From positions 6,635,501 through 6,699,500 of the forward strand of contig NZ_FNSM01000001.1 of NCBI RefSeq assembly GCF_900105415.1: a stretch of 64,000 bases of DNA, given 5' to 3'. Within the stretch, counting starts at the first letter, position 1. Every line of letters starts with the position of its first letter. This DNA comes from Streptomyces sp. TLI_105. Lineage in GTDB: Bacteria; Actinomycetota; Actinomycetes; Streptomycetales; Streptomycetaceae. Shown one piece after another: positions 42,002 through 58,141 of the stretch. The notes beneath the pieces were generated by a model. That model was not told the origin of the DNA and ran no database searches. It was given only the letters and a program-made list of their open reading frames with translations. The position numbers and the translations under genes are program-made.

Positions 42002-42364
42002 TCAGCCCACCGTCCAGATGTCGTAGAGGCGCACTTCGAGCACGGCCAGGACGACCGCGCCGGCCGCCACCGTCGCCGAACCCCACCGGCTGCGCTCCGC
42101 GAGCGACATGAAACCGGCGATGGGCACCGCGCACAGCGCGCCGAGCAGATAGGCGACGAAGATCGTCGTGCCCTCCTCGGCCTTCTCGCCGCGCGCCAGC
42201 TGCACGATGCCGACGATCAGCTGGACCAGGACCAGGAAGGTCACCACGGCCATGCCGACGAAGTGCCAGTCCTTGGTCGACTGGTCCCGGAAGGCGGCGA
42301 AGCCGCACCAGGCGGCGAGGGCGAGCGCGGCCACGGAGACCGCGACCGTCAGGGCGTCAAGCAT
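42002..42364 (-). CDS. Small membrane protein
   Basis: This 120-residue protein has about four hydrophobic segments (LTVAVSVAALALAAWCGFAA, FVGMAVVTFLVLVQLIVGIV, TTIFVAYLLGALCAVPIAGF, AAGAVVLAVLEVRLYDIWTV). ATG 42364 begins MLDALTVAV. No known domain is visible. It is the first gene of a two-gene unit with the following membrane protein, 2 bp apart. Confidence 0.8.
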   Translation of the reverse strand: MLDALTVAVSVAALALAAWCGFAAFRDQSTKDWHFVGMAVVTFLVLVQLIVGIVQLARGEKAEEGTTIFVAYLLGALCAVPIAGFMSLAERSRWGSATVAAGAVVLAVLEVRLYDIWTVG

Positions 42365-42625
42365 GCGCCCGAGGGTATTACGGCCCGAACGCCCCGATGC
42401 GCTCGCCCCCCGCTCCCCCGGCGCCCCGCTCACCGCGTGGTCTTGGCCACATCCCGTGCCCCGCGGCGGTCCCCGCCACGGCCGGAGCGGAGACGGCTCG
42501 CGCCAGGCCACGCCCGAGAAGGCGCACCGCGCGCCGTCCCCGGCGCGTCCGCCTGGCGTCTCAGTGATGTCCGCTATTCGGACGGACCGCTTCCCTTCGC
42601 AGCTGCGCATGTTTTACTTGCAGCC
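42365..42625 (+). other. Upstream region of the met leader
   Basis: No gene is seen in these 261 bp. Near the end are an inverted repeat GTCCG-CTATT-CGGAC (42569-42583) and the TTTACT -10 hexamer (42613-42618), 7 nt before the leader-peptide ATG. The inverted repeat is a candidate operator; a -35 is not clear. Confidence 0.5.
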
Positions 42626-42712
42626 ATGACCACGACGAGCAACCGCACCCTTGCGACCGAGGCGAACACGACGCCCGGTGCTCGTTGTATGTGTCGAATG
42701 TGCGCCATCTGA
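42626..42712 (+). CDS. Cys/Met-rich leader peptide of metNIQ
   Basis: The 28-codon ORF MTTTSNRTLATEANTTPGAR ends in CMCRMCAI then TGA. Three Cys and two Met codons fall within the last eight codons. The ATG lies 7 nt after TTTACT, so the mRNA is probably leaderless. It stands 212 bp before metN. Polycysteine leader peptides that couple cysteine supply to downstream translation are known in actinobacteria. This one mixes Cys and Met in front of a methionine importer, so ribosome stalling on Cys or Met starvation is a reasonable model. Confidence 0.72.
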   Translation: MTTTSNRTLATEANTTPGARCMCRMCAI

Positions 42713-42924
42713 GGGCCCCCGCCGAGCCTCGCGCCCCGAAGCGAGACCCCGACGGCCGAGCCGATCCGCCCGCCACCCGGCGCCGGACCGTGCCTGCCCC
42801 GCGCACCGCTGCCCACCGGCCACCAGCCGGCCGGAACAGCCTCCCGTGCGCCTGACTGTCCGAAGACGAATGCCCCGTGCGCGACGGACCCCGCGTCGCG
42901 CACTCGACAGTGACGGAAACCCCT
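42713..42924 (+). promoter_or_regulatory. Structured spacer between leader peptide and metN
   Basis: This RNA holds a CTCGC/GCGAG stem soon after the leader stop and a perfect 10-bp stem at 42877-42903 (GTGCGCGACG with CGTCGCGCAC, 7-nt loop) ending about 20 nt before the metN start. No T-tract follows, so control of metN translation is likelier than transcription termination. I see no SAM-riboswitch pattern. Confidence 0.5.
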
Positions 42925-43977
42925 GTGATCACCACTTCGGGCCTGACCAAGGTCTACGAGTCGCGCGGCCGACAGGTCACCGCTCTGGACGGAGTCGACC
43001 TCCACGTCCGCGAGGGCGAGGTGTTCGGCGTCATCGGTCAGAGCGGCGCCGGCAAGTCCTCGCTCATCCGCTGCGTCAACCTCCTGGAGCGCCCCACCTC
43101 CGGCACCGTGACCGTCGACGGCGTCGACCTCACCGCACTGGCCGGAAAGAGCCGCCGCGCCGGCAAGGACCTGCGCCGGGCGCGCAGCAGCATCGGCATG
43201 GTCTTCCAGCACTTCAACCTGCTGTCCTCCCGCACGGTCAAGGACAACATCGAGCTCCCCCTGGAGATCCTCGGCGTCTCCGGCGCCGAGCGCTCCCGCC
43301 GGGCCCTGGAACTCCTCGACCTGGTCGGCCTCGCCGACAAGGCGAAGTCCTACCCCGGCCAGCTCTCCGGCGGCCAGAAGCAGCGCGTCGGCATCGCCCG
43401 CGCCCTCGCCGGCAACCCCAAGGTCCTGCTCTCCGACGAGGCCACCAGCGCCCTCGACCCGGAGACCACCCGCTCCATCCTCCAGCTCCTGCGCGACCTC
43501 AACCGGCAGCTCGGCCTCACCGTCCTGCTCATCACGCACGAGATGGACGTCGTCAAGACGATCTGCGACTCCGCCGCGCTCATGCAGAAGGGCCGCATCG
43601 TCGAGTCCGGCACCGTCGGCGAACTGCTCGCCACCCCCGGCTCCCAGCTGGCGGCCGAACTGTTCCCGGTCAGCGGCGCCCCCACGGGCCCCGACCGCAC
43701 CGTCGTCGACGTCACGTTCCACGGCGAGGCCGCGACCCAGCCGGTCATCTCGCAGCTCTCCCGCACGTACAACATCGACATCTCGATCCTCGGGGCGGCG
43801 ATGGACACCGTCGGCGGGAAGCAGATCGGCCGGATGCGGATCGAGCTCCCCGGACGGTACGAGGACAACGTCGTCCCGGTCGGCTTCCTGCGCGAGCAGG
43901 GCCTCCAGGTCGAACTCGTGGAAGACGACGCACAGCAGGCCGCCGCGCCCGTGCTGGTGAAGGAAGGTGCCAAGTGA
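42925..43977 (+). CDS. metN: Methionine ABC transporter ATPase
   Basis: MetN powers uptake of methionine through MetI. The 350-residue protein has Walker A GVIGQSGAGKSSLIRCVNLL, signature LSGGQKQRVGIARALAGNPK, Walker B VLLSDEATSALDPET, and a C-terminal NIL domain (VVDVTFHGEAATQPVISQLS...). That domain binds methionine and gives transinhibition in E. coli MetNI. GTG 42925 (MITTSGLTKVYESRG) is preferred by family start and a nearby GGAA; GTGs at 42877, 42898 and 42910 are possible. Its stop overlaps metI by GTGA. Expression probably depends on the upstream leader peptide. Confidence 0.95.
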   Translation: MITTSGLTKVYESRGRQVTALDGVDLHVREGEVFGVIGQSGAGKSSLIRCVNLLERPTSGTVTVDGVDLTALAGKSRRAGKDLRRARSSIGMVFQHFNLLSSRTVKDNIELPLEILGVSGAERSRRALELLDLVGLADKAKSYPGQLSGGQKQRVGIARALAGNPKVLLSDEATSALDPETTRSILQLLRDLNRQLGLTVLLITHEMDVVKTICDSAALMQKGRIVESGTVGELLATPGSQLAAELFPVSGAPTGPDRTVVDVTFHGEAATQPVISQLSRTYNIDISILGAAMDTVGGKQIGRMRIELPGRYEDNVVPVGFLREQGLQVELVEDDAQQAAAPVLVKEGAK

Positions 43978-44642
43978 CCTGGTCCGAGATGCAGCCCCTC
44001 CTGGAGCAGGGCACCGTCGACACCCTCTACATGGTCCTGTGGGCCACCGTCGTCACCATCGTCGGCGGCCTGCCGCTCGGCATCCTCCTCGTCCTCACGG
44101 ACAAGGGCGGACTGCTGCAGAACCGGCCGGTGAACAAGGTCGTCGGTGCGATCGTGAACATCGGGCGTTCGCTGCCGTTCATCATCCTGCTGATCGCCCT
44201 GATCCCCTTCACGACCTTCGTCGTCGGCACCTTCATCGGCCCGACCGCGATGATCGTGCCGCTCGCCATCGGCGCCATCCCCTTCTTCGCGCGCCTCGTC
44301 GAGACGGCGATCCGCGAGGTCGACCACGGACTCGTCGAAGCCGTCCAGGCCATGGGCGGCGGCATCCCCACCATCGTCCGCAAGGTGCTGCTCCCGCAGG
44401 CCCTGCCCTCGCTGGTCTCCGCCGTCACCACCACCGTGATCGTGCTCATCGGCTACTCCGCGATGGCCGGCGCGGTCGGCGGCGAGGGCCTCGGCTCCAA
44501 GGCCGTCACCTACGGATACCAGCGCTTCGACACCACGTTCATGCTGGTCACCGTCGTCGTCCTGGTCCTCGTCGTGACCGTCGTCCAGCTCATCGGCGAC
44601 GGAGTCGTCCGACTCCTCGCCCGCCGGGGCCGCACCGCGTAA
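43974..44642 (+). CDS. metI: Methionine ABC transporter permease
   Basis: This 222-residue inner-membrane permease has five to six hydrophobic segments (LYMVLWATVVTIVGGLPLGI through MLVTVVVLVLVVTVVQLIGD). The EAA loop that docks MetN is VDHGLVEAVQAMGGGIPTIV. It starts at GTG 43974 inside the metN stop. Its length matches MetI of other bacteria. The 92-bp gap to metQ contains a small CTTCGA-TTG-TCGAAG hairpin, which may lower or adjust polarity. Confidence 0.96.
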   Translation: MTWSEMQPLLEQGTVDTLYMVLWATVVTIVGGLPLGILLVLTDKGGLLQNRPVNKVVGAIVNIGRSLPFIILLIALIPFTTFVVGTFIGPTAMIVPLAIGAIPFFARLVETAIREVDHGLVEAVQAMGGGIPTIVRKVLLPQALPSLVSAVTTTVIVLIGYSAMAGAVGGEGLGSKAVTYGYQRFDTTFMLVTVVVLVLVVTVVQLIGDGVVRLLARRGRTA

Positions 44643-44734: not shown

Positions 44735-45589
44735 GTGCGTAAGAACATCAAGCTCACCGCCGGTATCGCCGCCACCGCCGCCCTCGCCCTCGGCCTCACC
44801 GCCTGCGGCACCTCCTCGGACCCGTCCTCCGCCAAGGACCCGGCCGGCGCCGCCGACAAGCCCCTCGTCGTCGCCGCGTCCCCGACGCCGCACGCCGACA
44901 TCCTGAACTTCGTCAAGGACAACCTGGCCGAGAAGGCCGGCCTGAAGCTGGAGGTGAAGGAGTTCACGGACTACGTCCTGCCGAACACCGCCACCGAGTC
45001 CGGCCAGGTCGACGCCAACTTCTTCCAGCACAAGCCGTACCTCGACGACTTCAACAAGAAGAACAACACCCACATCGTCCCGGTGGTCAACGTCCACCTG
45101 GAGCCGCTCGGCCTCTACTCCAAGAAGGTCAAGTCGGTGAAGGACATCAAGGCCGGCCAGACCGTCGCCGTCCCCAACGACACCACCAACGAGGGCCGCG
45201 CCCTCCACCTCCTCGCCGACAACGGCCTCATCACCCTCAAGTCCGGTGTCGGCACCGACGCCAAGCTCTCCGACATCACCGACAAGAAGGGCCTGGAGTT
45301 CAAGGAGCTGGAGGCAGCCACCGTGCCCCGCGCCCTGAACGACGTGGACGCCGCCGTCATCAACGGCAACTACGCCATCGAGGCCAAGCTCCAGCCGGCG
45401 AAGGACGCCCTCGCCCTGGAGAAGTCCGAGGGCAACCCGTACGCCAACTTCCTCGCCGTCAAGGAGGGCAACGAGAAGGACGCCCGCGTGCAGAAGCTCG
45501 CCAAGCTCCTCAACTCGCCCGAGGTGAAGAAGTACATCGAGGACACCTACAAGGGCTCGGTCGTCCCGGCCTTCGGCGCCGCCGAGTAA
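44735..45589 (+). CDS. metQ: Methionine-binding lipoprotein
   Basis: This substrate-binding protein of MetNIQ is anchored outside the membrane. The lipobox LTAC puts the lipidated Cys at residue 24 after MRKNIKLTAGIAATAALALG. The mature part is the NlpA/MetQ fold: VVAASPTPHADILNFVKDNL, YVLPNTATESGQVDANFFQH, QTVAVPNDTTNEGRALHLLA and VDAAVINGNYAIEAKLQP. GTG 44735 has AAAGAGG about 8 nt upstream. It has 284 residues and is followed by a terminator. Confidence 0.96.
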   Translation: MRKNIKLTAGIAATAALALGLTACGTSSDPSSAKDPAGAADKPLVVAASPTPHADILNFVKDNLAEKAGLKLEVKEFTDYVLPNTATESGQVDANFFQHKPYLDDFNKKNNTHIVPVVNVHLEPLGLYSKKVKSVKDIKAGQTVAVPNDTTNEGRALHLLADNGLITLKSGVGTDAKLSDITDKKGLEFKELEAATVPRALNDVDAAVINGNYAIEAKLQPAKDALALEKSEGNPYANFLAVKEGNEKDARVQKLAKLLNSPEVKKYIEDTYKGSVVPAFGAAE

Positions 45590-57570: not shown

Positions 57571-57645
57571 TGGTGCGCGATACTGGGATTGAACCAGTGA
57601 CCTCTTCCGTGTCAGGGAAGCGCTCTCCCGCTGAGCTAATCGCGC
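57571..57645 (-). tRNA. tRNA-Val (GAC), copy 4
   Basis: The minus strand folds into a full cloverleaf: acceptor GCGCGAT/ATCGCGC, anticodon loop CTGACAC with anticodon GAC, T arm with GGTTCAATCCC. The CCA end is encoded (TGG at 57571-57573). It decodes GUC and GUU. It is the last of the array. Confidence 0.96.
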
Positions 57646-57674
57646 GGGTACACCCGAGGGGTGTTCGTACTGTG

Positions 57675-57746
57675 TGCGCGATACTGGGATTGAACCAGTG
57701 ACCTCTTCCGTGTCAGGGAAGCGCTCTCCCGCTGAGCTAATCGCGC
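57675..57746 (-). tRNA. tRNA-Val (GAC), copy 3
   Basis: Body and acceptor stem are the same as copy 4. The base triplet after the discriminator is not CCA (GTG on the plus strand), so CCA must be added by the enzyme. Confidence 0.96.
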
Positions 57747-57773
57747 GGGCGCACCCGAAGGGCGCGTGAACTG

Positions 57774-57848
57774 TGGTGCGCGATACTGGGATTGAACCAG
57801 TGACCTCTTCCGTGTCAGGGAAGCGCTCTCCCGCTGAGCTAATCGCGC
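57774..57848 (-). tRNA. tRNA-Val (GAC), copy 2
   Basis: Body and acceptor stem are the same as copies 3 and 4. CCA is encoded (TGG at 57774-57776). Confidence 0.96.
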
Positions 57849-57882
57849 GGGGGATCCGAAGATCCAGGACCCGAAGGTCCAG

Positions 57883-57954
57883 TGGACGATACTGGGATTG
57901 AACCAGTGACCTCTTCCGTGTCAGGGAAGCGCTCTCCCGCTGAGCTAATCGTCC
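57883..57954 (-). tRNA. tRNA-Val (GAC), copy 1, altered acceptor stem
   Basis: The body is identical to the other copies but the acceptor stem is GGACGAT/ATCGTCC instead of GCGCGAT/ATCGCGC; base pairing is kept. CCA is not encoded. It lies one base from the tRNA-Cys gene. Confidence 0.96.
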
Positions 57955-57955
57955 T

Positions 57956-58029
57956 TGGAGGTGGAGACGGGATTTGAACCCGTGTAGACGGCTTTGCAGG
58001 CCGTTGCCTCGCCTCTCGGCCACTCCACC
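57956..58029 (-). tRNA. tRNA-Cys (GCA)
   Basis: Cloverleaf with acceptor GGTGGAG/CTCCACC, anticodon loop CTGCAAA (anticodon GCA) and T loop GGTTCAAATCC. CCA is encoded (TGG at 57956-57958). U73 is the usual discriminator for Cys. Confidence 0.96.
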
Positions 58030-58068
58030 AGGAGTGAATACAGGGGTTCGGGAAGATCCCCCACATCG

Positions 58069-58141
58069 AGCGGACGACGAGATTCGAACTCGCGACCCTC
58101 ACCTTGGCAAGGTGATGCTCTACCAACTGAGCCACGTCCGC
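58069..58141 (-). tRNA. tRNA-Gly (GCC)
   Basis: Cloverleaf with acceptor GCGGACG/CGTCCGC, anticodon loop TTGCCAA (anticodon GCC) and T loop GTTCGAATC. CCA is not encoded. It is the first gene of the array as transcribed. Confidence 0.96.

Follow-up and report, generated by a model that had tools for sequence, protein, structure and literature searches.

A conserved leader ORF as a putative attenuator responding to Cys and Met supply 5' of metNIQ in Streptomyces

In Streptomyces sp. TLI_105, the region 5' of the metNIQ operon would appear to be a ribosome-mediated attenuator driven by the supply of Cys- and Met-tRNA, a reading to which a probability of about 0.6 is given. That the control of metNIQ is ribosome-mediated is likely, and the operon would probably be switched on when Cys and Met run short. 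The stretch of DNA analysed, referred to here as the window, is 64,000 nucleotides long (NZ_FNSM01000001.1, positions 6,635,501 to 6,699,500), and all coordinates are those of the window (Table 1). A 28-codon ORF ending in CMCRMCAI, which the first-pass annotation of this DNA had placed 212 bp before metN, is read directly in the sequence, as are the 212 nt between its stop and the GTG start codon of metN.

The first-pass annotation took this leader for a less-described regulatory system. It already has a name, metL (SLIV_29928), and is listed before metNIQ as a methionine attenuator of S. lividans TK24 in Table 4 of PMC8079986, as far as the available text of that paper goes. No further account of a Streptomyces metNIQ leader beyond this paper was found in the literature searched, and the S. 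griseus data in PMC8914203 make no mention of metN, methionine or cysteine. The leader is therefore a known one; new, as far as the literature was searched, are the Cys component, the conservation across the family, the fold embedded in the ORF and the fixed rare codon. Absent from the first-pass annotation were the three-way junction within the ORF, the CGA codon kept in the tail and the hairpin after the stop.

Table 1. Features of the leader region and the metNIQ operon, in coordinates of the window
Feature	Position	Strand	Basis	Details
Inverted repeat (dyad)	42569..42583	.	promoter region	GTCCG-CTATT-CGGAC = GTCCGCTATTCGGAC
Extended -10-like element	42610..42618	+	conserved position before leader ATG	TGT-TTTACT
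Leader ORF (metL)	42626..42712	+		28 codons, MTTTSNRTLATEANTTPGARCMCRMCAI; ATG 42626, TGA 42710-42712
Three-way junction in ORF mRNA	42632..42688	+	covariation, covariance model	
P1	42632-42640 with 42680-42688	+		codons 3-5 with 19-21
P2	42644-42655	+		codons 7-10
P3	42656-42679	+		codons 11-13 with 16-18
Cys/Met tail	42686..42709	+	codon counts	around rare codon CGA (42695-42697)
Post-stop GGGCCCC and hairpin P4	42713..42745	+	sequence conservation	CTCGC-GCCCCGAA-GCGAG; P4 42728-42745
Spacer	42746..42874	+	base composition	C-rich, G-poorer; candidate Rho loading region
Hairpin P5	42877..42903	+	folding prediction	10-bp stem, just 5' of metN ribosome-binding region
P5 arms	42877-42886 and 42894-42903	+	direct reading	GTGCGCGACG and CGTCGCGCAC
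metN RBS flank	42898..42909	+	duplex energy	GCGCAC-TCGACA, complementary to leader tail 42692-42697 and 42700-42705
metN	42925..43977	+	Pfam ABC_tran and NIL	ATPase with NIL domain; start codon GTG at 42925
metI	43974..44642	+	Pfam BPD_transp_1	permease
metQ	44735..45589	+	Pfam Lipoprotein_9, 315.3 bits	NlpA-type substrate-binding lipoprotein

The top NCBIfam model for the product of metN is MetN (TIGR02314), at 385.8 bits and below its cut-off of 499.7, and that for the product of metI is MetI (NF008049), at 209.3 bits and slightly under its cut-off of 212.

The leader is found throughout the genus. A 181-nt DNA query matched 140 of 150 Streptomyces genomes (E≤0.001), at a single place in each bar one genome with two, and in all 89 of the fetched places that hold metN the gene is preceded by the leader. 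Of the 141 places 90 were fetched, the ninetieth (L160) ending at a contig end and being left out of the locus tables. Of the ten genomes with no match, six have no metN at E≤1e-60 and four have one; in one of these four metN starts at the contig edge (L311), in another the match covers residues 43–350 only (L312), and in the last two (L313, L314) a diverged leader is present, MTGASSHHQAPETGTLSGARCPRRMCAR, despite there being no match to the query. In other genera of the Streptomycetaceae the leader tail is present at each of the 45 close MetN loci fetched, out of 77 matched genomes; 43 were identified by script and two by eye and covariance model (L186, L198), and in L191 the start is uncertain. 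There is no leader at two weak MetN matches in the family outside the genus (L243, L244). In other families the leader was seen in one of 28 fetched loci (67 genomes matched), in a scan that sought R-M-C-type tails only and with one locus, L238, too short to judge.

The Actinomadura locus L016, from another family, shows the leader. Its tail-to-P4 stretch is nearly identical to the Streptomyces one, and the remainder of the region differs. The leader script skipped L014, L015, L016 and L018, the first three of which list leader-like ORFs. Further copies of the tail within the genome of strain TLI_105 were considered and rejected, there being 36 matches to the tail pattern with up to two mismatches against 21 for the reversed control, and the sole exact match being the leader itself.

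Judging from its conservation the leader is almost certainly translated, because length changes inside the ORF keep the frame and those outside do not. The distance from CCCGG to CGAATG inside the ORF ranges from 9 to 48 nt and is a multiple of three in 120 of 121 usable loci, 16 more having been left uncounted as the distance was negative, the first anchor having matched elsewhere. The distance from the P4 loop to metN is spread over the three phases (42, 41 and 40 loci), and that between the P4 loop and the GGGCC after the stop follows no multiple-of-three rule. Both the start and the stop of the leader are conserved.

At a distance of 6 or 7 nt 5' of the leader ATG, 102 of the 103 loci in the Streptomyces set and 40 of the 43 from other genera have a hexamer resembling TTTACT, each with a TG one base 5' of it, which is as expected for an extended -10 element and would fit a leaderless start. 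Such a start has been mapped for the S. lividans leader, according to the available text of PMC8079986. A generic sigma-70 scan identified no promoter at the leader. The inverted repeat GTCCG-CTATT-CGGAC, to which the first-pass annotation had given a part in stem-loop control, is present and conserved, but would belong to the promoter region and not to RNA control: it lies 5' of the -10-like element and, given a leaderless start, would therefore be absent from the transcript. Of the 103 loci in the Streptomyces set, 95 have the pattern GTCC-N7-GGAC at 30–85 nt 5' of the leader ATG, its centre being 49–51 nt from the ATG in 91 of the 103, and arm positions 2–6 are more complementary than when shuffled, in a control that ignores relatedness. 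This dyad, at about -50, is probably an operator for a putative regulator, outside the leader RNA.

The outer arms of the dyad covary from species to species, a behaviour not usual in a simple operator. In the case of the strain's own genome, a copy with one mismatch (L252:1501-1516) precedes a methylmalonyl-CoA mutase gene (from 1600) by about 85 nt. This copy is absent from 26 of 26 other mutase loci and is taken as chance, so a dyad regulon including the mutase was rejected. A looser pattern gave 11 exact copies in other genomes, 10 of them in Streptomyces, none at the leader, and one in genome G490.

The tail of the leader is where the sulfur amino acids are concentrated. In the last 12 codons of 122 distinct leaders Cys makes up 24.2%, Arg 24.2% and Met 16.2%, against a background of 0.81%, 8.54% and 1.41%, respectively, in the 42 gene-like ORFs of the window; the leader of L191, with its uncertain start, was left out of these counts. 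Cys is present in all 122 tails and Met in 121, one leader having no tail Met. In the window the tail reads C-M-C-R-M-C, and most leaders have their Cys codons interspersed with Met and Arg, not contiguous. The interleaving of Cys and Met codons, noted in the first-pass annotation, is thus conserved for both, and conservation of these codons in relatives, one of the two conditions that annotation had set for its proposal, was examined with the outcome that the codons are kept and the proposal is not refuted by them. Both Cys and Met would probably be read by the leader. Individual positions do change: among the 69 leaders that are 28 codons long, 24 have Arg in place of Cys26.

In 119 of 122 leaders the last Met of the tail directly follows a CGA codon, while CGA makes up 2.6% of Arg codons in the ORFs of the window. 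Similarly, the tail Cys codon is TGT in 245 of 355 cases, with TGT making up 12.8% of Cys codons in the window genes; TGT at codon 21 may be partly due to pairing in P1. In a his-leader assay, as reported in the available text of PMC4046918, CGA took longer to read than CGC and CGU, stalling at CGA de-attenuated the operon, and NNC codons, Cys ones included, were read faster than NNU. The fixed CGA and the preference for TGT, both slow in that assay, would suggest that the tail codons have been selected for slow reading.

CGAATG (Arg-Met) is present in the tail of 149 of the 152 tabulated loci, including loci with an otherwise altered peptide, which might be expected of nascent-peptide arrest, in which the R-M-C end of the peptide would halt the ribosome in answer to a small molecule, independently of tRNA supply. 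This is improbable, as the peptide ahead of R-M-C is highly variable, ranging from RCMC to APRARMC, and it is CGA that is kept and not any Arg codon, which a peptide sensor would not need.

The coding RNA appears to carry a fold of its own. Many leader codons are fixed to the third base, and the fixed codons pair in P1–P3, which together would make a three-way junction within the ORF. In alignment A1, made up of 96 Streptomyces-set leaders out of 118 distinct sequences (L109, L161 and 20 from other genera were left out), 95.9% of cells are paired over P1–P4 and a possible pseudoknot, 16 cells are changed on both sides against 1.6 in shuffles (none of 500 reaching 16), and pairing falls to 30–46% when the partners are slid. 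With related genera (27 distinct rows) there are 29 such cells against 10.0 in shuffles, these controls ignoring relatedness and the cell counts standing for fewer events. The number of pair types is not above the shuffles with related genera (397/500), nor clearly so in A1 (57/500). With related genera the changes on both sides are chiefly of one P1 pair, which is G-C in 15 rows and A-U in 12, the swap taking Ser to Asn on one side and Ala to Val on the other, so that pairing is kept while both residues are changed. Alignment A2 held 29 of 34 sequences (L134, L155, L199, L204 and L247 were left out).

RNAalifold on A1 predicted P2, P3 and most of P1 unaided, with P4 paired differently, and P2 is weak with related genera, where 81.5% of cells are paired. 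A covariance model of P1–P3 scored above a sequence-only model in L314 (45.2 and 24.9 bits), L313 (39.0 and 22.0) and L199 (52.3 and 35.8), the two models weighting their rows differently. The structure model was run on 44 chosen loci and found the leader no more than 3 nt from the ATG in 13 of them at E≤0.01; the sequence-only model gave L228, a locus with no leader, an E of 0.0087. The possible pseudoknot of GGGC with the GCCC of the P4 loop has no pairs changed on both sides and 86.1% of cells paired. A candidate pairing of the leader CGAGGC with a complementary post-stop GCCTCG was also observed. If the three-way junction is true, the leader ORF has been under selection for its RNA structure as well as its coding sequence.

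RNA structure selected inside an ORF is also what would be seen if the aptamer of a ligand-binding riboswitch overlapped the leader. Against this, the frame is kept through length changes, the P2 and P3 loops vary with few fixed unpaired bases outside the tail, and the leader has no match in Rfam up to E=5, so that such a riboswitch is very improbable; nor had the first-pass annotation recognised one. A window-wide Rfam search at the gathering score gave nothing at the leader, and between 41500 and 43500 there is no match to the SAM, SAM-IV, Streptomyces-metH or Streptomyces-metK RNAs up to E=5, nor does any of these RNAs reach its gathering score elsewhere in the window, the only two matches in that interval lying on the opposite strand within 42087-42210, below their gathering scores. 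Elsewhere in the window Rfam identified the Streptomyces RNA Scr1601 (RF02830, 183.2 bits) at 867-1077 and a six-gene tRNA cluster on the minus strand at 57574-58141.

Within 8 nt after the leader stop, 96 of the 103 loci in the Streptomyces set and 17 of the 43 from other genera have GGGCC. The stem and loop of P4 are exact in 99 of 152 loci, three have a CCCGC/GCGGG stem, and the remainder have other variants, some mismatched; the loop core is absent in 28 of the 152, 24 of these being from other genera. Of 40 Streptomyces genomes 35 have a single copy of the P4 18-mer, as has one of the 354 others of the class sample, and all 30 copies fetched, of 36, lie 120–228 nt from metN, which would suggest that P4 belongs to the metNIQ operon. 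Judging from its distribution, the system does not depend on P4 in the family as a whole.

With two conserved hairpins 3' of the leader, a classical attenuator might be expected, in which P4 or P5 would serve as an intrinsic terminator with an antiterminator as its alternative. This too is very improbable, since a scan of 42500-43000 gave no terminator-like sites, the core loop of P4 is missing from the 28 loci mentioned, and for metL of S. lividans the available text of PMC8079986 describes termination as unclear, with no typical Rho-independent terminator. There being no U-run terminator, the output of metNIQ control is probably translational or Rho-coupled.

Rho-coupled termination is the nearest rival to translational attenuation. 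In this case, similar to tna, the ribosome would leave at the stop when Cys and Met suffice, and Rho would load on the C-rich spacer and end transcription before metN, while a stalled ribosome would cover the start of the spacer and block Rho. This would agree with the terminator scan and with the composition of the spacer, in which C exceeds 1.3 times G in 147 of 149 loci, the C/G ratio of the window's own spacer being reached by only 4.0% of its 160-nt stretches, a comparison made within the window. Rho has also been proposed for mycobacterial cys leaders in the available text of PMC1262725. RNAalifold identified no convincing fold in the spacer. However, Rho-coupled termination would leave the conserved P5 and RBS flank without a role, and it is rather unlikely.

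The 10-bp stem between the leader and metN reported in the first-pass annotation is indeed there, and folding predictions place P5 or a substitute hairpin in 134 of the 146 distinct loci, the arms having changed yet remaining complementary, as in L148 (GTGTCCGGGCA/TGCCCGGACAC) and in L001 and L208 (GTAC ends). The mean folding z-score of P5, at -1.3, is modest, and the case for P5 therefore rests on the co-changing arms. The TGTCGA-AT-GTGCGC of the leader tail can also pair with GCGCAC-TCGACA in the RBS flank, which would break P5. This duplex is predicted at -21.0 kcal/mol in the window, and in Streptomyces the mean is -21.1 kcal/mol, against -16.6 for a shuffled flank and -16.1 for other spacer stretches. 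It is no better than shuffled in the groups g14, g11, g4 and f17, and near shuffled in g2 and g15; the leader of L205, in g14, is that of the named Kitasatospora locus L014. A swap of tails and flanks across genera was not significant (p 0.22).

CGAC is present near the RBS in 102 of 108 loci in g1, 7 of 7 in g3, 9 of 10 in g7 and 5 of 8 in g14, against a background of 0.19 per stretch, and in none of the loci in g2, g5 and f17, though CGAATG is kept in nearly all of these. Pairing with the flank as the sole cause of tail conservation was rejected, as CGAATG is fixed where the flank has no CGAC. Support for the predicted pairing is confined to Streptomyces and near relatives. The start codon of metN itself lies outside both P5 and the pairing.

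Translational attenuation would proceed as follows. Transcription would start at or beside the leader ATG, as the conserved -10-like element suggests, and the ribosome would translate the leader and meet the Cys and Met codons around CGA near its end. Should Cys- or Met-tRNA be short, the ribosome would stall at the tail and cover it, so that the tail could not pair with the RBS flank, P5 would form, the start region would be free and MetNIQ would be made. Were Cys and Met plentiful, the ribosome would clear the tail, the three-way junction would refold, the tail would pair with 42898-42909 and translation of metN would drop. The three-way junction, 6 nt from the transcript 5' end, may restrict loading to the first ribosome. 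That the output lies mainly at metN translation through this pairing is possible, at somewhat under even odds. The attenuator reading is weakened by the ilvB leader of S. coelicolor, in which changes to the regulatory codons had no effect, as recounted in the available text of PMC1262725.

A more specific and more tentative proposal is that one leader senses the charging of Cys- and Met-tRNA together at the fixed rare-codon site CGA-AUG-UGY, with the three-way junction timing ribosome loading and refolding, making a terminator-free, combined Cys/Met gauge for methionine import. If this is true, a single translated RNA couples the import of methionine in Streptomyces to the availability of both sulfur amino acids. 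Such a link would fit with methionine being convertible to cysteine. The retention of one rare Arg codon throughout a bacterial family would, if true, also offer a clean test of codon speed in attenuation.

Mycobacterial polycysteine leaderless attenuators were reportedly described by Canestrari et al. in 2020. They resemble the present leader in that a short ORF containing Cys codons precedes an operon related to sulfur, with no obvious terminator (PMC9031893, PMC13236596 and PMC9094748, in the text available), and they are leaderless, as the conserved -10-like element would suggest for the present leader. They differ in that Cys here alternates with Met and Arg and is not contiguous, the operon is that of a methionine importer, and the coding RNA would have a selected fold. 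The LEU element before leuA is also an actinobacterial leader with sensor codons that can pair near the RBS of the structural gene, whereas here the partner is the flank 5' of the RBS and not the SD, the pairing is not seen in all genera and there is no Leu run; the available text of the same source (PMC1262725) gives no conserved RNA structure at methionine operons, and cysteine leaders in mycobacteria and others. The SAM, SAM-IV, Streptomyces-metH and Streptomyces-metK RNAs likewise represent RNA control of methionine-related genes in Streptomyces (listed for S. lividans in PMC8079986, available text). In the case of metL of S. lividans, the available account (PMC8079986) differs in calling the leader methionine-dependent and in leaving aside conservation, a role for Cys, the RNA fold, the CGA codon and the mechanism. 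The two leaders are otherwise alike in their position before metNIQ, the homologous peptide (MSTTSDRTPATEATTTPGARCMCRRMCAF in S. lividans), the leaderless start, a probable one here, and the absence of a typical Rho-independent terminator.
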